Source: Bryobacterales bacterium
GTDB taxonomy: Bacteria; Acidobacteriota; Terriglobia; Bryobacterales; UBA6623
Direction: 5' to 3'
Length of the DNA stretch: 37,222 nt
Assembly: GCA_022824585.1 (NCBI GenBank)
Contig: JAJDZN010000256.1
Coordinates: 1-37,222 of the forward strand
The number at the start of each line of letters is the position of its first letter. Position 1 is the first letter of the stretch. Made by a program: the position numbers and the translations under genes. This document shows, piece after piece, positions 21,422 to 34,337 of this stretch. The notes below the pieces were generated by a model that did not search any database, was not told the origin of the DNA, and saw nothing but the letters and a program-made list of their open reading frames with translations.

Positions 21422-21498
21422 GGGCGCGTAGCTCAGCTGGATAGAGCATCTGCCTTCTAAGCAGAGGGTCCCAGGTTCGAGTCCTGGCGCGCCTGCCA
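21422..21498 (+). tRNA. tRNA-Arg (anticodon UCU)
   Basis: A complete cloverleaf: acceptor GGGCGCG pairs with CGCGCCT (one terminal G-U), the D arm is GCTCAGCTGGATAGAGC, the anticodon stem TCTGC/GCAGA encloses the loop CTTCTAA with anticodon TCT, the T loop is GTTCGAGTC and the CCA end is encoded in the DNA at 21496-21498. It is followed directly by a degraded higB end and the defence genes, which is typical of integration at a tRNA 3' end, but I found no second copy of the 3' end in the window. Confidence 0.95.
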
Positions 21499-21582: not shown

Positions 21583-21888
21583 ATGAATGCGGTAAACGGC
21601 ATGAGACCAGTGCATCCGGGCGAGATATTGCAGGACGAACTCGCAGCACTCAGCCTGTCGGCCACCGCGCTGGCGAAGGAGCTGGACGTGCCGGTAAGCC
21701 GCATCGCGGCAATCCTGCACGGCCGGCGTGGAGTGACGGCCAACACAGCGTTGCGCCTAGCGCGCTATTTCGGGACGACACCGCAGGTCTGGCTGAATTT
21801 GCAAGCGACTTACGAGCTTCGTCGGGCCGAGATCGAGTCGGGCCGAGAAATCTCAAAGCGCGTTCAGCCCCGGCGAACGGCTGCCTAG
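21583..21888 (+). CDS. higA: HigA-family antitoxin (XRE helix-turn-helix), orphan
   Basis: A 101-residue protein starting MNAVNGMRPVHPGEILQDEL, the standard HigA entry. It carries an XRE helix-turn-helix with ALAKELDVPVSRIAAILHGRRGVTANTALRLARYFGT (about 29-65) and the family's QVWLNLQATYELRRAE helix. A strong GGAGG site lies at 21571-21575. HigA binds its own promoter and neutralises HigB; here the higB gene is reduced to a scrap, so this is an orphan regulator that might also act on the hsd operon 212 bases downstream (inference). Confidence 0.92.
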   Translation: MNAVNGMRPVHPGEILQDELAALSLSATALAKELDVPVSRIAAILHGRRGVTANTALRLARYFGTTPQVWLNLQATYELRRAEIESGREISKRVQPRRTAA

Positions 21889-22044
21889 ATCGAACCTAGC
21901 AGCATCCGCTACCATATGCCCGCTCCCGAAGATCAATCGCTCCTGGCCCCGGCGCTAGGGGCAGTGTCAGACAGCAGGCGGTTCAAGTGCATGATCCACT
22001 TGCTCGACTACGCCCCAAGCTGGTTAGCCACAATGGACGAAAGT

Positions 22045-22080
22045 TGCATCGATGCACCTCGGAGATCCCAGATAACTGGG
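22045..22080. promoter_or_regulatory. Two dyad symmetries upstream of hsdR
   Basis: A perfect 12-bp palindrome TGCATCGATGCA lies at 22045-22056, and the inverted repeat CCCAG-ATAA-CTGGG at 22067-22080. Both sit within 60 bases of the hsdR ATG (22101). They could be an operator for a helix-turn-helix regulator such as HigA, or a leader hairpin. No promoter hexamers are convincing. Confidence 0.35.
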
Positions 22081-22100
22081 TTTCTGGGAGGCTGATTGAG

Positions 22101-24515
22101 ATGGACAAGACAAGCCTCAGCGAACGAGACATCTGCAGCAAGTTCATCACGCCTGCCCTGAGGAAGGCCGGATGGGACGAGATGTCGCAAATTCGAGAGG
22201 AGGTCAGTTTCACAAGGGGACAAATCATCGTGCGCGGCAAGCTAGTTAGCCGCGGCAAGGGAAAGCGGGCCGACTACATCCTCTATTACAAGCCCAAGAT
22301 CCCTATTGCCGTGATCGAGGCCAAGGACAACACCCACGCCATGGGCGACGGCATGCAACAGGCGCTCGAGTACTCTGACATACTTGACATTCCTTTTGTT
22401 TTCTCCTCAAACGGCGACGGCTTCGTCTTCCACGACAGGACCGGAACGAGCGCGGAAACAGAAGCGACTCTCGGCCTCGACGGGTTCCCATCCCCCGGAG
22501 ATCTGTGGAACCGTTACCGGGATTGGAAGGGCCTCACAACGGAAGCCGAGAAAGTCGTCCTTCAGGACTACTTCGACGACGCTAGCGGCAAGGCGCCGCG
22601 CTACTACCAGGTCAACGCCATCAACTCGGCCATCGAGGCCATCGCCAAGGGCCGTGACCGCATCCTTCTCGTCATGGCTACGGGAACGGGTAAGACGTAC
22701 ACCGCCTTCCAGATCATCTGGCGGTTGTGGAAAGCGGGCCGCAAACGGCGCATTCTGTTCCTAGCTGACCGCAACGTGCTGATCGACCAAACCATGGTCA
22801 ACGACTTCCGGCCTTTTGGCTCGGCCATGGCCAAGCTCTCGACAAGAGCTAAGACCATCTCCCGTGACGGGAAGCGTCGCATCGATACCGCATACGAGGT
22901 CTATCTGAGCCTGTATCAGGCCATCACCGGACCGGAGGATCATCAGAAGATTTTCCGCGAGTTTTCCTCCACCTTCTTCGACTTGATCGTGATCGACGAG
23001 TGCCATCGCGGTAGCGCCGCCGAGGATGCGGCGTGGCGGGAAATCCTCGAGTACTTCTCATCCGCCACTCAAATAGGCCTGACCGCCACGCCTAAGGAAA
23101 CCAAATACGTTTCCAACATCCATTACTTCGGCGAGCCGGTCTATTCCTACTCCCTCAAGCAGGGCATCCGCGACGGATTCCTCGCCCCCTACAAGGTCGT
23201 CAAGGTCCATATTGATCGCGACGTGGAGGGGTACCGCCCTGAGAAGGGTCAGTTGGACCGGGAGGGAGTAGAGGTCAAGGACCGTATCTACAACAACACA
23301 GACTTCGACAGCACGCTGGTTCTGGACGGTCGAACCAAGCTTGTAGCCCGGAAAGTCACTGAGTTCTTGGAGGAAAGCGGGGACCGCTTTCAAAAGACGA
23401 TCCTCTTTTGCGTCGATCAGGAGCACGCTGCCCGCATGCGCCAGGCGCTCGTCAACCAGAACTCCGATCTAGTGGATGGGAATCACCGCTATGTCATGCG
23501 CATCACCGGCGACGATGGAGAAGGGCAGGCGCAACTCGGCAACTTCATCGACCCGGAATCCAAATATCCCGTGCTGGTCACTACATCCCGGCTCCTATCC
23601 ACCGGCGTCGACGCGCAGACCTGCCGGCTCATCGTGCTTGACCGCGAGGTCGGCTCAATGACCGAGTTCAAGCAAATCGTCGGACGGGGCACCCGCGTGC
23701 ATGAGGACACTCAGAAGTTCTATTTCACCTTGTTGGATTTCCGGGGCGCGACCAGCCACTTCGCCGATCCAGACTTCGACGGCGAGCCGGTTCAGATTTA
23801 CGAACCCGGCGAAGACGATCCAGTAGTGCCTCCTGACGATCATCAACCCCCGGATGACAATGAAGAAACAGCAACGCAGGAGACGGGCGACGATGGAACA
23901 ATCATCGATGATCCTCCCGACATCACCCTGCCTCCTGATGGGCCTGGAAAACGCAAGGTCTACGTGGACGGCGTCACTGCAACCATCGTTGCCGAGCGTG
24001 TGGAGTACCTCGACGATAAGGGCAAGCTCGTCACCGAGTCCCTGCGCGATTTCACCAAGAGGGCGCTGAGAAAACGCTTCGCCAGCCTTGACGCCTTCCT
24101 GAGGCGCTGGGAGAGCACCAAGCGCAAGCAAGCGATTATCGAGGAGTTGAAAGCGGAAGGCTTGGACCTTGACATCATTACCGCAGAACTGGGCAAGGAC
24201 CTTGATCCCTTCGACCTGATCTGCCACGTCGCATTCGATGCCAAGCCATTGACCCGGCGTGAGCGCGCCGAAAGCGTCAAGAAACGCGACGTGTTCAGCA
24301 AATACGGCGACCAAGCCCGCGCTGTGCTAGACGCATTGCTCGCCAAATACTCTGACGAAGGCATGCTTAACCTTGATGATGCTAACGTCCTCCGGATTCC
24401 TCCCTTCATCGAACTCGGCACCCCGGTTCAGCTTATTAATGCTTTTGGCGGGCGCAAGGGGTACGTCGCGGCTGTCCACGACCTTCAGTCTGCCCTCTAT
24501 CGGGAGGCCGCTTGA
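22101..24515 (+). CDS. hsdR: Type I restriction enzyme R subunit (EcoEI-like)
   Basis: An 804-residue protein; ATG 22101 has GGGAGG 9 bases upstream and opens with MDKTSLSERDICSKFITPAL; a GTG at 21987 is possible but lacks support. The N-terminal nuclease has a PD-(D/E)XK site with Asp58 and Glu73-Ala-Lys75 (IEAKD). The translocase follows: Walker A ATGTGKT at 193-199, DECH box at 299-302, GLTATP, and motif VI in QIVGRGTR. The C-terminal part matches the EcoEI_R_C region that contacts the HsdM/HsdS core. It cuts unmethylated DNA after ATP-driven translocation. The stop is 3 bases before hsdM, so it is the first gene of a four-gene operon. Confidence 0.95.
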   Translation: MDKTSLSERDICSKFITPALRKAGWDEMSQIREEVSFTRGQIIVRGKLVSRGKGKRADYILYYKPKIPIAVIEAKDNTHAMGDGMQQALEYSDILDIPFVFSSNGDGFVFHDRTGTSAETEATLGLDGFPSPGDLWNRYRDWKGLTTEAEKVVLQDYFDDASGKAPRYYQVNAINSAIEAIAKGRDRILLVMATGTGKTYTAFQIIWRLWKAGRKRRILFLADRNVLIDQTMVNDFRPFGSAMAKLSTRAKTISRDGKRRIDTAYEVYLSLYQAITGPEDHQKIFREFSSTFFDLIVIDECHRGSAAEDAAWREILEYFSSATQIGLTATPKETKYVSNIHYFGEPVYSYSLKQGIRDGFLAPYKVVKVHIDRDVEGYRPEKGQLDREGVEVKDRIYNNTDFDSTLVLDGRTKLVARKVTEFLEESGDRFQKTILFCVDQEHAARMRQALVNQNSDLVDGNHRYVMRITGDDGEGQAQLGNFIDPESKYPVLVTTSRLLSTGVDAQTCRLIVLDREVGSMTEFKQIVGRGTRVHEDTQKFYFTLLDFRGATSHFADPDFDGEPVQIYEPGEDDPVVPPDDHQPPDDNEETATQETGDDGTIIDDPPDITLPPDGPGKRKVYVDGVTATIVAERVEYLDDKGKLVTESLRDFTKRALRKRFASLDAFLRRWESTKRKQAIIEELKAEGLDLDIITAELGKDLDPFDLICHVAFDAKPLTRRERAESVKKRDVFSKYGDQARAVLDALLAKYSDEGMLNLDDANVLRIPPFIELGTPVQLINAFGGRKGYVAAVHDLQSALYREAA

Positions 24516-24518
24516 TCC

Positions 24519-25976
24519 ATGTCCGTCCGCACCATCGTCAAGTCCATCCAAGACATCATGCGCCAAGACACCGGCGTCGATGGCGATGCCCAGCGCATCA
24601 GTCAGTTGTGCTGGATGTTCTTCCTCAAGATCATCGACGATCAGGATCAGGAACTGGAACTGATGAAGGATGACTACACGTCTCCAGTCCCAGAGGACTT
24701 CCAGTGGCGCACTTGGGCGGCAGACCCCGAGGGTATCACCGGTGAGAAACTGCTCGCCTTCATCAACGCCGACCTGTTTCCGACCCTGAAAGCTCTTCAG
24801 GTGACGGGCCACTCCGGCGACCGACGCCGTGTCGTGCGCACGGTGTTCGAAGATGCCTACAACTACATGAAGTCCGGCCAGTTGATGCGCCAAGTGGTCA
24901 ACAAGATCAACGAAGTCGACTTCAACAACCTGAGCGAACGCCAGCATTTCGGCGACATCTACGAACAGATCCTCAACGACCTGCAATCAGCAGGTAACGC
25001 GGGCGAGTACTACACGCCCCGCGCCATCACCGCATTCATGGTGGACCGGATTGACCCGAGACCGGGAGAGACACTGCTCGATCCGGCCTGCGGCACCGGC
25101 GGCTTCCTAACCTGCTCCTTGCGGCACATGCGCGAACGCCATGTCAAGCGGCCCGAAGACGAACAGATTATTCAGGCAACGCTCCGTGCCGTCGAAAAGA
25201 AACAGCTTCCTCACATGCTCTGCGTTACCAACATGTTGCTGCACGGCATTGAGGATCCCGGGTTCGTGCGCCACGACAACACGCTGGCACGGCCTTATAT
25301 CGGCTGGGAGCGCAAGGATCGGGTGGACATCGTACTCACCAATCCCCCCTTCGGCGGCAAGGAGGAGGACGGCATCGAGAGCAACTTCCCGCAGCACTTC
25401 CGGACCAAGGAGACGGCGGACCTGTTCCTCGCATTGATCGTTCGCCTGCTGAAGCCGGGAGGACGCGGTGCCGTGGTGCTGCCCGACGGCACTTTGTTCG
25501 GCGAAGGCGTCAAGATGCGGCTCAAGGAACATCTGATGGAGGAATGCAACCTGCACACGATCGTTCGTCTGCCCAATTCCGTGTTCCGCCCCTATGCCTC
25601 CATCGGAACCAACCTGCTGTTCTTCGAGAAGGGCGAGACGACCCAAGGCATCTGGTTCTACGAGCACCGCGTGCCTGAGGGCCAGAAGGCCTATTCCATG
25701 ACCAAGCCGATCCGGCTAGAACATCTGCAACCCTGCATCGACTGGTGGGGCGGGGCGGAACGCAACGGACGAGAGGAGACCGAACGAGCCTGGAAGGTGA
25801 CAGCGGACGAGGTCAGGGAGCGCGGATACAACCTAGACATCAAGAACCCTCACACTCAAGAAGACGATCACGGTGACCCGCAGGACTGGCTGGACAAACT
25901 GGCTGCCGCCGAAGCTGATGCGGCGGACTTGCGGAAGCGCTTGAAGACCATTCTGGCGGAGGCGCTGATCCGATGA
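24519..25976 (+). CDS. hsdM: Type I DNA methyltransferase M subunit
   Basis: A 485-residue protein. The N-terminal HsdM helical domain begins MSVRTIVKSIQDIMRQD. The SAM-binding motif I is DPACGTGGFL at Asp188, and the N6-adenine catalytic motif IV is NPPFGG at Asn275-Phe278. The GEYYTPRAIT motif lies ahead of motif I, typical of HsdM. It methylates adenine in the target set by HsdS. It starts 3 bases after hsdR and its stop overlaps the hsdS start (ATGA at 25973-25976). Length is normal. Confidence 0.97.
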   Translation: MSVRTIVKSIQDIMRQDTGVDGDAQRISQLCWMFFLKIIDDQDQELELMKDDYTSPVPEDFQWRTWAADPEGITGEKLLAFINADLFPTLKALQVTGHSGDRRRVVRTVFEDAYNYMKSGQLMRQVVNKINEVDFNNLSERQHFGDIYEQILNDLQSAGNAGEYYTPRAITAFMVDRIDPRPGETLLDPACGTGGFLTCSLRHMRERHVKRPEDEQIIQATLRAVEKKQLPHMLCVTNMLLHGIEDPGFVRHDNTLARPYIGWERKDRVDIVLTNPPFGGKEEDGIESNFPQHFRTKETADLFLALIVRLLKPGGRGAVVLPDGTLFGEGVKMRLKEHLMEECNLHTIVRLPNSVFRPYASIGTNLLFFEKGETTQGIWFYEHRVPEGQKAYSMTKPIRLEHLQPCIDWWGGAERNGREETERAWKVTADEVRERGYNLDIKNPHTQEDDHGDPQDWLDKLAAAEADAADLRKRLKTILAEALIR

Positions 25977-26596
25977 ACCCCGACCGGTTCCTGACCCATT
26001 ACGAGAAGATCGCCGACGCGCCGGACGCAATCCCTCGCTTCCGCAGCTTCGTCCTCGATCTGGCCACGCGCGGTAAGTTGGTGGAACAGGAGCCGAAGGA
26101 CGAACCAGCATCGGAGTTGTTGAAGCGGAGTGCAGCCAAAAAAGCACAGATTGCGAAGATCGGGAAGAACAAGAGAAGTAAGTCTAAGCAGATAGACGGG
26201 TTCAACACCCTTTGTCAGCTTCCGAAGTCTTGGAAATGGACCACCGTCGGCGATCTCTTCTTGTATGATGCAGGCGTCAAACGACAGCCGAAGAATCTCG
26301 ATCAGACCCTATGGCTTCTGGAACTCGAAGACATTGAGAAGGGCTCTGGGCGATTGCTTGTTCGGATCACAGTATCTGAGCGGGAATCGAAGAGCACTAA
26401 GTCAGAGTTTCGTGCTGGCGATATTCTCTACGGAAAACTGAGGCCTTATCTGAACAAGGTACTGGTCGCCGATCATCCTGGGTATTCGACAACCGAAATC
26501 GTAGCCCTTCGTCCGTTTCTACGCCTCTGTCCACAATATTGCGCTTTGGCTTTGCGGCGACCCGACTTGGTCAGGGTACAAAGATGCCGCGATTGA
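25973..26596 (+). pseudogene. hsdS: Type I specificity subunit, N-terminal fragment with TRD1 (frameshifted)
   Basis: A 207-residue frame overlapping the hsdM stop by 4 bases. It has the half-module helix DLATRGKLVEQEPKDEPASELLK (about 24-50), then TRD1 (about 70-190: GWT-like WKWTTVGDL, DILYGKLRPYLNKV, YSTTEIVALRP). It stops at 26596 just after CALALRRPD, where other family members continue to a QGTKMPRL segment; that segment is present in the +1-type alternative frame. So the original single gene is interrupted by a short frame-changing loss near 26560-26580. Without the following helix this fragment is unlikely to work alone. Confidence 0.85.
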
Positions 26597-27750
26597 GAAC
26601 AGAAGATGCCGCAATCGCACCCTTCCCTCTCCCCCCTCTCGCCGAGCAGCACCGGATCGTTGCTAAAGTCGACGAACTCATGGCCCTGTGCGACCGGCTG
26701 GAGACGGCGCGCACAGCGCGGGAAGAATCGCTTGACCGACTCGCGGCGGCAAGCCTCGCTCGTCTCAACGAGCCCGATACCGACCCAGCCGTATTCCAGA
26801 ACCATACCGCCTTCGCACTCGACAACCTCATCCCGCTCACCAAACGCCCCGACCTGATCAAGGCTCTGCGCCAGACCATACTCAACCTCGCTGTGCGCGG
26901 CAAGCTGGTCGAGCAGGATCCGAAAGACGAACCGGCGTCGGAGTTGCTGAAACAGACTGCGGAGCGGAAGGCGCAGCTTAAGGTTAAGCATCACGTAGTG
27001 CCGCTTGCTATAGAGGAACGCCCATTTTGTCTTCCAGTGGGTTGGCAGTGGAGCCGTGTCGGCGAACTTTGCACTAAGACTGGTTCTGGCAGCACGCCGC
27101 GCGGCGGTAAGAACGTCTATACGAAATCCGGTGTGCCCCTCCTTCGGTCACAGAATGTCTATGACGGTGGCCTTCGAATGGACGATGTAGCCTACGTTGG
27201 GCCCGACGTTCACGCGAAAATGACGGGAACTGCTGTTCGAGCAAGGGACTTGCTTTTGAACATCACAGGTGGCTCCATGGGGAGGTGCTGTCGTGTACCC
27301 GATCAATTTGACGAGGCTAACGTTAGCCAACACGTCGCCATAATCCGCCCAGCCGTATCCGAGATGTCGGACTTTCTTCATAAGCTCGTGCTGTCACCGT
27401 GTTTCCAAGCGTTCATCTTCGACGAGCAAACCGGCGCAGGACGTGGTGGCCTCCCCAAGAAGAAAATGGATCGGATAGCTGTCGCCGTTCCACCCCTAGC
27501 CGAGCAGCACCGTATCGTTGCCAAAGTCGACGAACTTATGGGACTCTGCGACCGGCTGGAGGCGAGCCTCGCCAGCGTCGATGACACCCGCCGCCATCTG
27601 CTTGGCGCACTACTGCACGAGGCGCTTGCTACGAGTGAGGAAAAGATCCGGCGGGATAGCTCCACGATCACTCAAGAACCGCCCGCCAAACCACCCGAGT
27701 CACTCAAAGCGCTCGCACATCCGACTCCGGCCGGCACATCACCCGAATGA
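26584..27750 (+). CDS. hsdS: Type I specificity subunit, C-terminal half (central helix + TRD2)
   Basis: A 388-residue product from ATG 26584 (AGGG about 8 bases upstream; TTG at 26539 also possible). It begins MPRLRTEDA and the conserved helix PLPPLAEQHRIVAKVDEL, then a second half-module LAVRGKLVEQDPKDEPASELLK, TRD2 (WQWSRVGELCTKTGSGSTPRGG through VSQHVAIIRP), and a second PLAEQHRIVAKVDEL helix. This has helix-TRD-helix content like natural half-S subunits, which can work as dimers (known for some truncated HsdS). So specificity may survive with a different, symmetrical target; this is inference. The last four bases (ATGA) overlap the start of the STAND gene. Confidence 0.85.
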   Translation: MPRLRTEDAAIAPFPLPPLAEQHRIVAKVDELMALCDRLETARTAREESLDRLAAASLARLNEPDTDPAVFQNHTAFALDNLIPLTKRPDLIKALRQTILNLAVRGKLVEQDPKDEPASELLKQTAERKAQLKVKHHVVPLAIEERPFCLPVGWQWSRVGELCTKTGSGSTPRGGKNVYTKSGVPLLRSQNVYDGGLRMDDVAYVGPDVHAKMTGTAVRARDLLLNITGGSMGRCCRVPDQFDEANVSQHVAIIRPAVSEMSDFLHKLVLSPCFQAFIFDEQTGAGRGGLPKKKMDRIAVAVPPLAEQHRIVAKVDELMGLCDRLEASLASVDDTRRHLLGALLHEALATSEEKIRRDSSTITQEPPAKPPESLKALAHPTPAGTSPE

Positions 27751-30700
27751 GCCTTCCCGACATCCGTTTCGAGAACGTTCGTCCGTTCGACGGAAGCCAA
27801 GATGGCGGGTTCGAGGAAATGTGCTGTCAACTCGCTGCTTTGGATGAGGTAGCCACGGGAGCAGACTTCCATCGAAAAGGCCACGGCGGGGACGCGGGTG
27901 TCGAATGCTACTGCCGTCGTGCAGACGGGACTGAGATCGGATGGCAGGCCAAATATCTCTTTCGCTGGAGTAACAGTCTCAACACGCAACTCAACGATTC
28001 GATACGCACGGCGCTCGATAAGCACCCGAGTCTTGTCGAGTACGTCGTCTGCCTTCCGTTTGACCTTCCCGATCCTCGAACAGACACGGGTAACACCGCG
28101 AGAGAGAAGTGGGAGGTATGGTGCACAAAATGGAAGAAGTTCGCCGCAAAGCAGGAACGTGACCTGACAATCACGCTGTGGGGCAAGAGCGAACTCACTG
28201 GTCGGTTGACCAGAGAAGACCCTGCCTACTCGGGTCGTCTCCTCTACTGGTTCGGACGCGAGGCTCTCACAGCGAGGTGGTTCACGGAGCAGTTTAGCAA
28301 GGCAAGCGATTCTCTGGGAAGCCGATACAGCCCCGAAACGAACGTTGAACTCCCAATTCGACAGGATTTCCTTGCGTTCGCACGCCATCCTGAACTTCAG
28401 AAGGAGATCGATGGGTGGCTATTCCGTGTCACCGAGAAAGGCAGTAGTGCCGTAGATGCCTTAGGCAGAACGGGCACAGAAGCAGCCAAGACCCATTCCG
28501 ACCCTCTGGGCAACGCAATTCGTGCACTTACTTCTTTGCTCGACGGGGAGCCTATCGGTCCCGACCAACCCTATCCTCTTACCGATTGGAGCGCCGGAGC
28601 TTCAAACTGTCTCAATCTCGCCAGAAAGGCCCTCAACTGGACCTACGACCTACCGCCTTCCGAGCCCGACAGTACGGGCATCAAGTCCGAGCGCTGGGCG
28701 CAATACACTCTCCATGAGCTGATGGAGGCGCTACATGAAATCAAGAGGGCTCTCGCTTCGAACCGTTGGCAACTGACTAACGCGAAGGCGGCTCTGCTGC
28801 ATGGTCCAGCCGGCATCGGCAAATCCCATTTGCTTGCCGACATCGTGGAACACCATCTTCACGAAGGTGGGCCTGCACTGCTCCTTCTTGGCGGTGGATT
28901 TGTCGACGATGAGCCGTGGCCGCAGATTCGCGACCGACTCGATCTCCCACCAACGGAGCAGTTCAAGCACTTTCTCGGCAGTCTAGACGCAGCAGCGCAG
29001 GCATCTGGCATGAGAGCAATGGTCTGCATTGATGCTCTGAACGAACGCAACGGCCTTGATGTCTGGCCCGAGCGTCTCGCAGCCCTTCTCCGGACTGTCG
29101 GGGCGTTTCCACGAATCGGGGTAATCCTGTCATGCCGTTCCACCTATCTTCCCTATGTGATCCCGGACGACCTAGATGAAGATCGGCTCTTCCGCATCGA
29201 GCACGAAGGCTTCGCCGCCGACGGTGGAGAGGCAGCGAAGGTCTATCTTGCCAAACGAGGAATGGTCAGCCTTGGGGCTCCTAGTCTTGTTCCCGAATTT
29301 GAGAATCCGCTCTTCTTGAAAACATGCTGCGACTCGCTACAGAAGGAGGGAAAAACCGAATTCCCTAGGGGGCTCCGTGGCGTCACGTCAATCTTCGACT
29401 TCTACTTCAAGGCGCTGACTAGATCGCTGAACCGGCGAATGAGGCTTGATTCTCATCTGGAGATAGTGCCACAGGCAGTCAAAGGATTTGCACGATTACT
29501 CGCGGACACCGGCAAAGGGTATGCCCCGAAGCGAGAGGCCGTTACTCTATTTGAATCGATCCTTGCCCCGGGCGGAAGCCTTGAGATGAGTCTGCTAAGG
29601 CAACTGGAAAGCGAGGGTCTTCTTACCGTCGAACCCATGCTGCAGGATGATCGGTCGCTTGCTGAGATGGTTCGCTTTACCTTCGAGCGCTTCAGCGATC
29701 ATGAAATAGCGTCGCGCTTGCTAGATGATCACATCGATAGCGACGATGTAGCTAGTTCCTTTCAGGCTGACCAGCCTCTCCACGCGTGTCTTCTCGGGCC
29801 GGAGAATTATAGCCGTGCCGGGGTGATCGAGGCGATGGCCATTCAACTCCCAGAACGGACTGGTGTTGAGATATTGGATCTTGGACTTGAGGATTCTTAT
29901 ACAGTGCGCAACGCATTTCTGAATAGCCTTCTCTGGCGCAAACAGTCTAATTTCACGGATCGTACGTTCGAATTGTGTCGACGATTACTTGAGACGGATG
30001 AGTTGAACGATATGCTCATTTCAATCAGCACAGAACCATCCAACAAATTCAACGCCATCTTCGTCCACAAGAAGCTCGCGGAAATGTCGATGCCCAAGCG
30101 TGATGCGTTCTGGTCAATCTATTTGGCAGAGCGCGGATTCGAAGGGCCTATCAAGACACTAATTTCTTGGGCACTTCAGGATGATCTCAAGCACATAGAC
30201 AATGATCGTGCGCACTTGACAGCAATAGTGCTTATCTGGTTCTTTACCACATCGCATCGCGAGATCCGGGACAAGGCCACCAAAGCCCTTGCCAGCATTT
30301 TGAGCCGACGGCTTCTCCTTGCCGCGCGTTTACTTGGCGACTTTTTAACTGTGAACGATCCGTATGTTTCTGAACGTCTTCTGGCTGCTTGCTACGGTGC
30401 CGCGCTTCAGGGAACGGAACAAGAGGGGCTCAGCGAACTTGCCCACAGGGTCTTCGACACGATTTTTGCCCGCGAGCAACCGCCGGCAAACGCGCTTCTG
30501 CGCGACCATGCTAGAGGCATTGTAGAGTACGCAGCGTCACGCGGCGTTCTGAATGGTTCCTTTGATCTCACGCTTGCACGGCCGCCCTACCAAAGTCCCT
30601 GGCCAATCGAACCAGTTCCGGATGAATTGATCGATGGCTATACCGAGGATCGTGGTCACGGGTCCTTTCGCGACGCAATTGTTGCTTCTACCGTTAGTGA

Positions 30701-32297
30701 CATGGGCGACTTTGCAAAATATGTCGTTGAAAGCAAAGTGAGCAGATGGAGTCCCGCACAGATAGGAACGACTCCCCTTCCAACTTCAGTTGACATTTGC
30801 GTGGAATGGCTGCGGGAGTTTTTGAAAACATCAACGACAGATCAACGAGAATCTATTCTGGAATATATGAGCGTATCTAGGGAAATTAAGAATATTCAAG
30901 ACCATCAATCCACTCCGGAGATGAAACGACTGAATACTGCCGAGATGGCCCTTAAGCAAACTATGACATCGGATCAGTGGGAGGACTTTCGGGTCCGCTC
31001 TAAGGACTTTTGCCGGCGCAAATCCTTTACAGAACAACCAGCACAATTCAATGTCGAATGGAGCCGTCGATGGATATGCAAGCGAGCCCATGAACTAGGT
31101 TGGACGTCCGAACACTTCGGGGATTTTGACAATCGCTTTCGCTCCCCCGGCCGAAATGACCACAGGGTCGAACGTATCGGTAAGAAATACCAATGGCTCG
31201 CGCTCCAAGAACTTATCGCGCGCATGGCAGACAATCTAGCGTTCTTAGACCGTCCGCAGAGCGACGACGATAAAGAATGTTCGCGGGAATGGATTGCACG
31301 TACAGTCGGGCTACGCGATATCGACCCATCTCTCCTGACCACTCAGACTCATTACGACGGGTGGCGTGAGTGGGGCAAGAAATGGTGGGTTCCCATCAAT
31401 CGTCCGCTTCGCGCAATGGCCCTCCAAGAGCGTCTTGCTTGGCTAGAGAGTGAAGCCGACATTGCCGCAGACAGTGCTCTCATCGACTTGTGCGACCCGA
31501 AGACAGACGAAAAGTGGTTGGCTCTGTCGGGATTCTCGAATTGGAGAGGCCATGGCCCACGGAGTGGGAGAAAGGAACTCCAGCGCGATGCGTGGTTTCG
31601 ACTTACCTGCATCGTCGTGCAGCGTAAGGATCAGAGCAAGATGATTGAGAGCCTCCGAGACAAGATTCTGACAAATCCCAGCTCGTTCCCTAGCATCGAG
31701 CTTCATTCTGGATATCATTATCTTGGTGAACATCCTTGGCACCCCGAGATCCGAGACCTCGACCGCTGGAGCTCGCACGACGATTGGCAGGCCTTTGCCA
31801 CTCCGATACGCCTAACAGTCGTCTCTTACATGTGCACGGTTGGGGGCTACGACTACTCGATCGATCGGACGATTAGTGTAGAGATTCCTGCTCCTTGGCT
31901 GTCCAAGAGTATGGGCCTTCAGCTGTCTAGCGGGCGATCTCTGATCTTTGTCGGTTCAGATGGGCAAAAGAAGTTCTACGACGCATCCGTCGTTGAGCCT
32001 GGTCCTGGTGCGGCACTTGTTGACCGCGATACATTTCTACAGGTGCTGGATCGGCAAGATCTCTCTGCAATCTGGGTGATCGCCGGTGAAAAGAACGTCT
32101 TTAGCGGAAGTGATATGAGTCCGAGGTTTGGGGGCAGCTTGCGCTACACTGCGCTCTATCACCTTGACGGCGAGGGCTTTACATGTAGTCTCCATACGGA
32201 TCGGATACATCCAACCAAAAGCCAGCTGCAGGAATTTTTCGGAGAAGACCCCATACCAATCGGCATTGAGACCAGACCGGACGACCAGCAGGTCTAA
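27747..32297 (+). CDS. Avs-like STAND NTPase with N-terminal PD-(D/E)XK-like nuclease
   Basis: A 1516-residue protein. Residues 20-90 look like a Cap4/Mrr-type nuclease: FEEMCCQL, then GGDAGVE (Asp49, Glu53) and GWQAKY (Gln67-x-Lys69). A linker with YSPETNVELPI (about 194-204) precedes the NTPase: Walker A GPAGIGKS at 353-360, Walker B CIDALNE with Asp429-Glu433, and ILSCRSTYLP as sensor. The C-terminal 900 or so residues are mostly helical and without a domain I can name, as expected for the ligand-sensing part. Known Avs proteins detect phage terminase or portal and then cut DNA. The ATGA overlap with hsdS means translational coupling. Base composition is visibly less GC-rich than the core genes, suggesting transfer. 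No disruption is seen. Confidence 0.85.
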   Translation: MSLPDIRFENVRPFDGSQDGGFEEMCCQLAALDEVATGADFHRKGHGGDAGVECYCRRADGTEIGWQAKYLFRWSNSLNTQLNDSIRTALDKHPSLVEYVVCLPFDLPDPRTDTGNTAREKWEVWCTKWKKFAAKQERDLTITLWGKSELTGRLTREDPAYSGRLLYWFGREALTARWFTEQFSKASDSLGSRYSPETNVELPIRQDFLAFARHPELQKEIDGWLFRVTEKGSSAVDALGRTGTEAAKTHSDPLGNAIRALTSLLDGEPIGPDQPYPLTDWSAGASNCLNLARKALNWTYDLPPSEPDSTGIKSERWAQYTLHELMEALHEIKRALASNRWQLTNAKAALLHGPAGIGKSHLLADIVEHHLHEGGPALLLLGGGFVDDEPWPQIRDRLDLPPTEQFKHFLGSLDAAAQASGMRAMVCIDALNERNGLDVWPERLAALLRTVGAFPRIGVILSCRSTYLPYVIPDDLDEDRLFRIEHEGFAADGGEAAKVYLAKRGMVSLGAPSLVPEFENPLFLKTCCDSLQKEGKTEFPRGLRGVTSIFDFYFKALTRSLNRRMRLDSHLEIVPQAVKGFARLLADTGKGYAPKREAVTLFESILAPGGSLEMSLLRQLESEGLLTVEPMLQDDRSLAEMVRFTFERFSDHEIASRLLDDHIDSDDVASSFQADQPLHACLLGPENYSRAGVIEAMAIQLPERTGVEILDLGLEDSYTVRNAFLNSLLWRKQSNFTDRTFELCRRLLETDELNDMLISISTEPSNKFNAIFVHKKLAEMSMPKRDAFWSIYLAERGFEGPIKTLISWALQDDLKHIDNDRAHLTAIVLIWFFTTSHREIRDKATKALASILSRRLLLAARLLGDFLTVNDPYVSERLLAACYGAALQGTEQEGLSELAHRVFDTIFAREQPPANALLRDHARGIVEYAASRGVLNGSFDLTLARPPYQSPWPIEPVPDELIDGYTEDRGHGSFRDAIVASTVSDMGDFAKYVVESKVSRWSPAQIGTTPLPTSVDICVEWLREFLKTSTTDQRESILEYMSVSREIKNIQDHQSTPEMKRLNTAEMALKQTMTSDQWEDFRVRSKDFCRRKSFTEQPAQFNVEWSRRWICKRAHELGWTSEHFGDFDNRFRSPGRNDHRVERIGKKYQWLALQELIARMADNLAFLDRPQSDDDKECSREWIARTVGLRDIDPSLLTTQTHYDGWREWGKKWWVPINRPLRAMALQERLAWLESEADIAADSALIDLCDPKTDEKWLALSGFSNWRGHGPRSGRKELQRDAWFRLTCIVVQRKDQSKMIESLRDKILTNPSSFPSIELHSGYHYLGEHPWHPEIRDLDRWSSHDDWQAFATPIRLTVVSYMCTVGGYDYSIDRTISVEIPAPWLSKSMGLQLSSGRSLIFVGSDGQKKFYDASVVEPGPGAALVDRDTFLQVLDRQDLSAIWVIAGEKNVFSGSDMSPRFGGSLRYTALYHLDGEGFTCSLHTDRIHPTKSQLQEFFGEDPIPIGIETRPDDQQV

Positions 32298-32498
32298 CCG
32301 TCAGCGACGCTGCTTCCCTCGCACCCCCAGAGGATCAGCGGTTTCCGGCAGCCGATCTCGGCGCTGCATCCCAACTGTCGGCAACTCGACGCGAGCCTTG
32401 TCGGCGTCCAGCTCGGCAACTACAGTAGTGGCTGCCGCCGCTGGGGGTGCTGCAGCGATCCTTCCGACTGCATGCAGAATGTTCAAGGGGAGAGCGAC

Positions 32499-34337
32499 AT
32501 GCTTACAAGAGCGCGACTTATTCCTGGATTGGTTGCCTGTTCGCTGGCGGCAGGGACCGCGCACGCCGCGCAGATCATCCGCGAATCTCTGCCGACGAGT
32601 CTGGTGAGCGCAGGTGCAGTCGAGTACGCAATTCTGCTCCCGGACGGCTATTCACCCGATGGCGAGCGATTTCCCCTCGTGTTGCTCCTCCATGGTGCGG
32701 GCGGCGACCGGGAGAAGATCGCGCGGATCGAGCCAGAGATCGCCGAGCTGCGGGCTTCGAATGACATTCCCCGCATGGTGGTGGTGACCCCGTCGGTGGC
32801 GACCGGCTCGATCTACATGGACAGCTATGACGGCAAGGAGCGTTGGGAATCGTTCCTCATGGACGAGTTCCTGCCGCACCTGCGGGCCCGATATCACGTC
32901 AGCCGCGAACGTGAGACGACGATGGTGACCGGGGGTTCGATGGGCGGGTTGGGCAGCTTGCGACTCGGTTTCAAGTATCCAGAGACCTTCGGGGCGGTAG
33001 CGGCGATCCATCCCGCTGCGTGGCCGGGCCTGACTTGGGACGAGGTGCCGGAACGCAACAAGATCCGACCTGCGGAGCGGATCGCCAATCTGTTTGGAGA
33101 CCCGTTCGACCACCAGCGGTTTCAGCAGGAGAACCCTGCGTCGATTGTCGAGAGCGACCCATCGAGACTTCGAGACTCGGCGATCTACATCGAGGTCGGT
33201 GAGCAAGACGGCTTCGGATTCGTCGAGGGCACGGACTTCATGCATCGCCTGCTGTGGCGTCATCGCATCCCGCACGAATACCGTCTCGTTCGCTGGGCGG
33301 ACCACGTTGGCAGCACGGTCGCGGAGCGCTCCCGAGACCGTTTCCGCTTCTTGGGTCGCTACCTGGAACAACCGACCGCTCCCGAGCCAGCTGTCGAGAG
33401 GTTCCGCAAGCGCATGGCAGACCGCCATCGAGCAAGAGGGCTGGAGCCGTTCGGATTCTGGCCGAACTCGACGCTGCGTTCCTATGGCCCAGCAGACGGC
33501 TTTGAGAGCGAGAGGGCAGTTCGGGATTCCGAGAAGGTTCGCAAGGAGCGCGGGGTCGTCCGCGTCGCCGATGTCCCTTACGCGAAGCATCCCGGGACTG
33601 ACCCGCTGAGACAAAGCATGGACATCTACATTCGGGAGGGGCTGACCGACGCTCCTGTCGTCTTGTACGTGCATGGCGGCGGGTGGATCCGCGGCGACAA
33701 AACAAGAGCCTTGTTCAAGCCCGCTTATCTGGTTCCGGAAGGGTATCTGTTCGCGTCAATGAATTACCGGTTCCATCCCGAAGCGAGCCTTAAAGACATG
33801 GCGGCAGACGTCGCCTCGGCCGCGGTCTGGCTCAAGCAGCACGCGCCGAAGTACGGAGGCGACGGCACGCGGATCGTGCTGATGGGACACTCGGCCGGAG
33901 GACACCTAGTCGCCCTGGTGGGCGCGAATCAAGCCTTCATGGAAGACGCCGGAGGATCGTTGAGCGACCTCGCCGGCGTGGTTGTGATCGACTCCGCCAT
34001 GCTCAACGTGCCAGCGCGCATGGAAACGGCTGGGCAGTCCCAAATCCGCGTGTTCGGCAGCGCAGCGGAGGGATGGGTCCCTGTGTCGCCTTGGCACCAC
34101 GTCGAAGCAGGAAAGGGCATACCGCCGTATCTTCTGTTCACCTCAGACGGCCGCACGATCTCGCACGAGCAGGCCGCCATGTTGACCGCAAAGTTCGAGC
34201 AACATGGCATTGAAGCGTCGTCCCACGAGGGCAAGGGGCGAGCTCATACACCGCTAGACACCTATATAGGCGTCGAGGGGGACGCGAGCACCGGCATCCT
34301 TCTGGACTTCCTTCGCCGACATACCGAATCGCTCTAG
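32499..34337 (+). CDS. Secreted two-domain esterase (esterase D/PHB-depolymerase-like + BD-FAE-like)
   Basis: A 612-residue protein; ATG 32499 is preceded by GGGGAG and starts a clear signal peptide (MLTRARLIPGLVACSLAAGTAHAA). Domain 1 (about 35-290) has LLLHGAGGD and nucleophile Ser147 in GGSMGG, with the final histidine in WADHVGST. Domain 2 (about 350-612) has HGGGW at 392-396 and Ser465 in GHSAGG, with a late RAHTPLD histidine. Two complete alpha/beta hydrolases in one chain suggest action on a polymer with more than one ester type, for example acetylated or feruloylated xylan; this is inference. It starts 200 bases after the STAND gene, and its high GC content fits the host. Confidence 0.82.
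   Translation: MLTRARLIPGLVACSLAAGTAHAAQIIRESLPTSLVSAGAVEYAILLPDGYSPDGERFPLVLLLHGAGGDREKIARIEPEIAELRASNDIPRMVVVTPSVATGSIYMDSYDGKERWESFLMDEFLPHLRARYHVSRERETTMVTGGSMGGLGSLRLGFKYPETFGAVAAIHPAAWPGLTWDEVPERNKIRPAERIANLFGDPFDHQRFQQENPASIVESDPSRLRDSAIYIEVGEQDGFGFVEGTDFMHRLLWRHRIPHEYRLVRWADHVGSTVAERSRDRFRFLGRYLEQPTAPEPAVERFRKRMADRHRARGLEPFGFWPNSTLRSYGPADGFESERAVRDSEKVRKERGVVRVADVPYAKHPGTDPLRQSMDIYIREGLTDAPVVLYVHGGGWIRGDKTRALFKPAYLVPEGYLFASMNYRFHPEASLKDMAADVASAAVWLKQHAPKYGGDGTRIVLMGHSAGGHLVALVGANQAFMEDAGGSLSDLAGVVVIDSAMLNVPARMETAGQSQIRVFGSAAEGWVPVSPWHHVEAGKGIPPYLLFTSDGRTISHEQAAMLTAKFEQHGIEASSHEGKGRAHTPLDTYIGVEGDASTGILLDFLRRHTESL

Follow-up and report, generated by a model that had tools for sequence, protein, structure and literature searches.

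An Avs2-clade sensor gene joined to a type I restriction operon with a split hsdS in a Bryobacterales bacterium

Does a protein-sensing nuclease that is encoded in one run with a type I restriction-modification (R-M) system depend on that system, or does it act as a defence of its own that travels with it? The question is raised by a 37,222-nucleotide stretch of DNA from a Bryobacterales bacterium (assembly GCA_022824585.1, contig JAJDZN010000256.1, positions 1-37,222, forward strand; hereafter the window), in which hsdR, hsdM and hsdS are followed by avs2, a gene for a large STAND NTPase (Table 1). From the results described below, we consider it probable that this protein is an autonomous Avs2 sensor in an exchangeable slot behind hsdS, and that it would serve as a second, independent defence layer that is transferred together with restriction.

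The fourth gene and its product

All four operon genes lie on the + strand in the order hsdR-hsdM-hsdS-avs2. The coordinates given in the initial annotation were confirmed: hsdM begins after a gap of three bases behind hsdR, hsdS overlaps the end of hsdM by ATGA, and avs2 overlaps the stop codon of hsdS by the same four bases (27747-27750). By its layout the avs gene belongs to the hsd unit, as had been claimed, and other defence genes occupy the same place in related operons. The picture of an R-M-S-avs operon stood as far as the layout is concerned, but not in its treatment of hsdS as one gene, which is instead made up of two reading frames. The start of hsdR was taken as ATG 22101, which is residue 39 of a longer open reading frame (ORF) opening with GTG at 21987; this start is plausible because family profiles begin at residues 37-44 of the long ORF. 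HsdR scored 1164 bits against NCBIfam NF046051 (cut-off 550), which assigns it to the EcoAI/FtnUII type. The operon resembles others of this type in its HsdR and in its R-M-S order with overlaps, and differs from them in having a split hsdS and an attached fourth gene.

The product of the fourth gene matched the PADLOC profile for Avs2 over residues 4-1492 of 1516 (1722.6 bits), and an ORF of 1516 codons with a full-length match of this size is beyond chance. Its score against the NCBIfam Avs2 model NF041813 was 933.7 bits, under the naming cut-off of 1000, and it was therefore filed as a divergent Avs2-clade protein rather than as that equivalog. The sole sequence match in the PDB at E values up to 1 was 9o4e, an Avs2 structure, aligned over residues 174-1479, while the N-terminal 170 residues gave no match to 9o4e. 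A profile of the N-terminal region, built from 58 proteins including that of the window, matched instead the N-terminus of Avs4 (8dgf, E 7.9e-5). Thus, the protein is like Avs2 in its full-length profile match, its alignment to 9o4e and its retained Walker A and DALNE motifs, and unlike 9o4e in its Avs4-like N-terminus.

We also compared predicted structures. An AlphaFold model of residues 1-205, with a mean predicted local distance difference test score (pLDDT) of 90.6, had Avs4 8dgf as its top Foldseek match (E 6e-5, template modelling (TM) score 0.53 on the query), followed by the nucleases EcoO109I and LmuA (E 0.008-0.009), with unrelated folds mixed in lower down. The model of residues 330-1516 (pLDDT 88.3) matched NLRC4, Avs3 and Avs4 at low TM scores of 0.15-0.18 on the query, and 9o4e was not among its best 50 structure matches. 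The comparison of the C terminus with Avs1-4 that the initial annotation had proposed thus gave low-TM matches, to Avs3 and Avs4 among others.

Active-site residues were followed in an alignment of 70 proteins, the one of the window and 69 from loci where the ORF is single and intact. All 70 have the nuclease residues E23, D49, E53 and Q67, and 69 have K69; in the NTPase, the Walker A lysine K359 and D429 are present in all 70 and E433 in 69. These results agree with the initial annotation, which had described an Avs-like sensor with its own N-terminal PD-(D/E)XK nuclease and had singled out Lys359 and Lys69: the profile, the conserved residues and the model identify the protein as Avs2, and the nuclease fold is retained on the conserved residues and on Avs4 as its best structural match. 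By alignment and model, the fourth gene is predicted to encode a sensor of the Avs2 clade whose nuclease is Avs4-like, and it bears no sign of decay.

Avs1-4 are reported to kill by nuclease activity once they detect a phage protein such as terminase or portal (PMC12931631), and in Alcaligenes faecalis the portal protein of lambda is reported to trigger an Avs2 (PMC13141931). By homology, the Avs2 of the window should act likewise without the help of Hsd proteins. Its C-terminal part would bind a conserved phage protein, after which the STAND ATPase would assemble and the N-terminal nuclease would cut DNA and stop the infected cell. The shared unit with restriction would provide for joint transfer, co-expression and perhaps translational coupling, and would so yield two independent layers.

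Table 1. Features of the window at and around the hsd-avs2 insertion
Feature	Positions	Strand	Remarks
tRNA-Arg (tct)	21422..21498	+	Chromosomal anchor left of the insertion; common to three sister genomes
HigA-like helix-turn-helix (HTH) gene (presumed)	21583..21888	+	Adjoins the tRNA; outside the insertion
Insertion with hsdR-hsdM-hsdS-avs2	21897..32397		Lineage-specific; edges approximate, within ~15 bases; based on empty sites and the scar in genome G003
hsdR, EcoAI/FtnUII-type restriction/translocase subunit	22101..24515	+	NCBIfam NF046051; Pfam HSDR_N, ResIII, EcoEI_R_C
hsdM, N6-adenine methyltransferase subunit	24519..25976	+	Pfam N6_Mtase, HsdM_N; PADLOC MTase_I, 726 bits
hsdS, first piece	25973..26596	+	Conserved N-terminus and first target-recognition domain; PADLOC Specificity_I 37-222/589
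hsdS, second piece	26539..27750	+	PADLOC Specificity_I 229-588/589; Pfam Methylase_S
avs2, 1516-residue STAND NTPase sensor with N-terminal nuclease	27747..32297	+	PADLOC Avs2 PDLC02164; PDB 9o4e, 463 bits
Avs4-like PD-(D/E)XK nuclease domain, residues 1-205	27747..28361	+	E23, D49, E53, Q67, K69
STAND NTPase and C-terminal sensor, residues 330-1516	28734..32297	+	Walker A K359, DALNE 429-433; PDB 9o4e match

The slot behind hsdS and the neighbours of Avs2 relatives

To compare the position behind hsdS, 43 operons were collected by their HsdM: the window, the 15 best of 39 other places, 3 plus 9 new ones, 14 from plasmids (all 14 plasmid HsdM records were opened) and L068, a locus that also carries avs2. 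Forty with a known hsdS end and enough DNA downstream were counted; L172 and L159, which yielded no hsdS end, and L207, with 136 bases after hsdS, were dropped. The slot was scored as filled if a same-strand ORF of at least 150 amino acids had its start in the interval from -40 to +60 bases relative to the hsdS stop. By this rule it was filled in 16 of the 40 EcoAI-type operons, and the mirror test before hsdR gave 3 of 40, a weak control, as promoters lie there. Neighbours defined by ORFs may be spurious in GC-rich DNA, an example being the 216-residue ORF of L204, which had no family match.

When the 16 occupants were compared with PADLOC, nine scored above 150 bits, one reached 97, two 43-44 and one 22, and three had no match. 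Besides Avs2 in the window (1722 bits), the strong matches were DSR1 (G193, 2154 bits), PDC-M26 (Pseudoalteromonas, 1048 bits), PDC-S11 (Pantoea, 545 bits; partial in P. aeruginosa, 157 bits), DSR2 (G110, 485 bits), LmuA/Cap4 (Aliarcobacter, 434 bits), the 5'-nucleotidase of PDC-S08 (G778, 417 bits, with NsnABC, or Nantosuelta, behind it) and PtuA (G090, 184 bits). The lower scores belong to a DUF262 protein in Vibrio aerogenes (97 bits), to HTH-M78 peptidases in G450 and G400 (43-44 bits) and to a weakly STAND-like protein in G210 (22 bits); the occupants in Paracoccus, P. amygdali and G792 had no PADLOC match. An ATGA junction like that of the window recurs with other occupants, in G110, G450, G400 and Paracoccus.

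The closest HsdM, in G589, is 85% identical to that of the window, and its operon has no tight fourth gene. G186 and G494 have HsdM proteins that are 95% identical; in G186 a UG13-type reverse transcriptase lies 222 bases behind hsdS, and in G494 an M78 peptidase gene, which shares 91% identity with that of G450, sits at the junction. G494 was left uncounted because its hsdS is fused or partly deleted. The occupants have therefore been exchanged. An occupant is optional, and very similar restriction operons swap theirs.

Further genes were observed in and around operons of this type. Each hsd junction in Paracoccus seriniphilus (L176:7149-13727) carries an additional gene: hsdR and hsdM are separated by an FRG-domain gene, hsdM and hsdS by one for a NucS-like nuclease, and hsdS is followed, at an ATGA junction, by a gene for a 489-residue protein. 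A gene for an HTH protein with an M78 (ImmA/IrrE-like) peptidase domain overlaps the preceding stop by four bases in operons of one genus (L148:9206-10354, L149:9203-10351 and, on the reverse strand, L172:1714-2859). In L201:8144-12566, a 5'-nucleotidase gene and NsnA, NsnB and NsnC (Nantosuelta) form one run behind hsdS.

Defence domains in R-M loci are not new in themselves. Makarova et al. (2012) reported Sir2, HEPN, ParB and REase-fold domains, with toxins displaced repeatedly, at R-M loci of types I and III, and proposed a functional coupling of immunity with suicide (PMC3506569); the portion of that paper available to us does not name STAND/Avs sensors among its R-M-locus domains. What is added here is that Avs2, DSR1/DSR2, Nantosuelta, LmuA/Cap4, PtuA-like, M78 and other genes stand at one position of one R-M family. 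A bolder interpretation of this series would be that the slot in EcoAI-type operons serves specifically to accommodate abortive sensors, Avs2 included, which are tuned by translational coupling to HsdS and report attack on or failure of restriction, making one operon a programmable two-layer response. The initial annotation had suggested such a sensor, one that fires when restriction fails or HsdRMS is attacked. We found nothing that links Avs2 activity to restriction failure, and we regard this interpretation as improbable.

A tie between sensor and restriction might also be visible in the neighbourhoods of other Avs2 genes. An earlier contig scan with the single protein gave 50 pattern matches and no relative; a scan of genome contigs with a five-protein alignment gave 313 Avs2 relatives, of which the best 80 were kept. 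Their flanks, with at least 2 kb of upstream sequence in 67 of the 80 loci, were searched with Hsd seeds from a few families, so that other type I families may be missed. An hsd-like match was found in the examined flanks of five of the best 80 loci. L068 has a divergent complete hsdRMS beside avs2, L086 a divergent hsdS fragment, and L060 and L081 weak hsd matches (44 and 20 bits). In one locus of the 80, L083, avs2 lies directly after an hsdS, and this hsdS is a relic. The initial annotation had proposed to ask whether the avs gene recurs directly after hsdS, and had named homologues that almost never adjoin hsd genes as a refutation. With one such case among the best 80 of 313, this refutation largely applies to the protein of the window: the association is not conserved across the genomes examined, and a general linkage of Avs2 to hsd genes was rejected. 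Because most Avs2 relatives lack hsd genes nearby, this protein would be expected to do without Hsd.

The relic of L083 (9066-10016, in a gammaproteobacterial metagenome-assembled genome) overlaps the start of avs2 and consists of the C-terminal part of an hsdS behind an N-terminus that looks unrelated by inspection; no hsdM or hsdR was found nearby with the seeds used.

The genome of the window has one Avs2 match, and matches were found in 3 of 61 relatives and in 8 of 396 genomes of a phylum sample that includes this one. Among plasmids, 57 records had an Avs2 match and eight were opened; in two near-identical Acetobacter plasmid loci, a metalloprotease gene separates avs2 from a convergent hsd operon. 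A single record matched in the phage collection, over 24% of the protein. On an Azonexus plasmid (L015:15378-19862), a second gene for a large ATP-binding protein (4.5 kb) lies convergent to that of Avs2.

The split hsdS and the question of dependence on restriction

The hsdS of the window consists of two overlapping ORFs in different frames, of 207 and 403 residues, and ten relatives have a single open hsdS frame of 546-586 codons; one intact hsdS gene was thereby ruled out. Aligned to the HsdS of relatives, the first piece covers residues 1-209 at most and the second runs from about 204 to near the end, which puts the break where the first recognition domain ends. The central conserved region, the second target-recognition domain and the C-terminal conserved region all fall in the second piece, and the two conserved regions form a direct repeat of 75 nucleotides. 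This is the layout of a half-S subunit, and the piece has an in-frame ATG at 26584. Half-S subunits are functional in some type I systems. The window lacks one intact HsdS carrying two target-recognition domains, and the start of avs2 overlaps the stop of the second piece. As judged from its reading frames, the locus is an EcoAI-type operon with a split hsdS, and not a proven working system.

Other irregular hsdS genes are found in G589, with a short match only, and in G494, with an hsdM-hsdS fusion or a deletion. In the DSR2-like operon of G110 (L147:5726-6099), hsdS is also split, with a four-base overlap TTGA and with undetermined bases just upstream of the split, where an assembly fault is possible.

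The split raises the possibility that the restriction system is failing and that Avs2 alone is functional, with the upstream genes serving mainly as its leader, which would be compatible with the explanation that we prefer. The broken hsdS fits this decay, and so does L083, where the relic before avs2 has the look of such a decay at a more advanced stage. Against it, hsdR and hsdM are of full length with strong family scores, and the second hsdS piece keeps its half-S layout and could be translated from the in-frame ATG. We hold decay of this kind to be a tentative possibility.

The same evidence bears on whether Avs2 is held in check by the restriction complex. The classic abortive effector within an hsd operon is PrrC of EcoprrI, an anticodon nuclease that is held by the type I enzyme and freed on T4 infection (PMC3874165). 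The window resembles EcoprrI in that an effector gene is encoded in a type I R-M operon; here, in contrast, the gene lies behind hsdS and specifies a STAND nuclease that senses proteins, and nothing indicates that Hsd holds it. If HsdRMS bound and silenced Avs2 in the manner of PrrC, phage anti-restriction proteins or loss of the complex would free it. Such coupling would fit the layout, the recurring defence genes in the slot and the general proposal that immunity proteins inhibit linked suicide genes (PMC3506569). However, hsdS is split and the avs2 motifs are kept, although a cell that has lost the silencer should be under selection to lose the killer as well; Avs2 relatives mostly lie away from hsd genes; and the slot occupants come from different families, for which a common contact surface seems unlikely. 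A conserved avs2 beside a split hsdS speaks against an Avs2 that depends on intact HsdRMS, and we consider a PrrC-like arrangement very unlikely.

No obvious ribosome-binding site was seen ahead of avs2, which together with the ATGA junction suggests translational coupling to hsdS. By layout, this junction would place avs2 within the hsd transcription unit, the promoter scan being uninformative. Several observations weigh against the proposal of an autonomous Avs2 as a further layer in the restriction unit. That scan found no promoter between hsdS and avs2 and none before hsdR either, which says little, and a terminator-like match lies at 27358-27371 in the second hsdS piece, from a scan with a total of 6 matches against 10.2 in shuffles. 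Ribosomes that start at the hsdS ATG would stop about 1.15 kb before avs2, and coupling of avs2 would therefore require that the second piece be translated. Given the split, the restriction activity may itself be lost. In addition, 24 of the 40 operons have no slot ORF by the rule used, a number that includes G186 with its more distant reverse transcriptase and L185 and L200 with ORFs of less than 150 amino acids, and no other avs2 lies behind a full hsdRMS in the loci examined.

A block inserted beside tRNA-Arg

We compared the neighbourhood of the esterase gene, which follows avs2 in the window, in eight genomes of the genus. In G009, G010 and G005, the tRNA-Arg gene, a gene that we take from its sequence to be HigA-like, and the esterase gene are adjacent, with 60-123 bases between the HigA-like and esterase ORFs; this is the empty site, and the block that carries hsdR-hsdM-hsdS-avs2 occupies exactly that junction in the window. 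In the closest sister, G003, the alignment to the window runs up to 21896 (93.6%) and resumes at 32231-32398 (84.6%), a scar made up of the very end of avs2 and the spacer that follows. Other DNA follows the scar in G003, and the contig ends inside this insertion of its own. These alignments are most simply explained by a block that the common ancestor already had and that G003 lost in one piece, the direct trace of it there being the 3' end of avs2 only. In G004, G008, G001 and G006, tRNA-Arg and the HigA-like gene are absent from the esterase stretch examined, and the site is not comparable.

Inclusion of the HigA-like gene in the insertion was ruled out by its presence at the empty site of three sisters, and a tRNA-end repeat framing the insertion was ruled out because the window has one copy at up to 3 mismatches. 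No integrase was named in family scans of hsdR, hsdM, both hsdS pieces and avs2.

An insertion of this sort could also reflect hitch-hiking, with avs2 brought next to hsdS by a chance event in a defence hotspot and sharing the unit without a selected function. The single relic among the best Avs2 loci, the operons without a tight fourth gene and the other DNA held at the tRNA-Arg site in one sister genome would be expected in this case, as would the base composition of avs2, whose third-position guanine and cytosine content (0.57) is unlike that of hsdR (0.73) and hsdM (0.78), with 0.62 and 0.64 in the hsdS pieces. However, ATGA junctions recur in related operons with different genes (an M78 peptidase, a DSR2-like gene and an unknown one), genes appear to be gained and lost as one block, and Avs2 adjoins hsdM and hsdS in S. 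aureus too (PMC12829572). Chance placement is accordingly, in our view, unlikely.

The S. aureus case is the nearest to that of the window. On the vSa-beta island, an Avast type II gene adjoins hsdM/hsdS, and lateral transduction carries all of them together (PMC12829572), so that both cases have Avs2 adjacent to hsdS and, in S. aureus, transferred together with hsdM/hsdS. They differ in that the S. aureus hsdR lies elsewhere in the chromosome, whereas the window has one hsdR-hsdM-hsdS-avs2 run with an ATGA junction and a split hsdS; the available portion of that report mentions neither overlap nor co-translation for its Avs2. Our literature searches on Avs2 with type I restriction or R-M operons turned up neither avs2 as the fourth gene of a full hsdR-hsdM-hsdS run nor a list of occupants of the slot behind hsdS. 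Stacking of immunity layers by R-M coupling is of an already known kind, to which the window adds a real but modest example. With closely related restriction operons that carry different defence genes in one slot, it offers a compact case of layered immunity, in which the question that follows from the 2012 proposal (PMC3506569) can be put: does linkage bring synergy, dose control or only joint transfer?

Finally, the esterase gene at 32472-34337 of the window has matches in G005 and G010 with one in-frame stop in a read-through frame, and a second esterase copy is present in several genomes of the genus.

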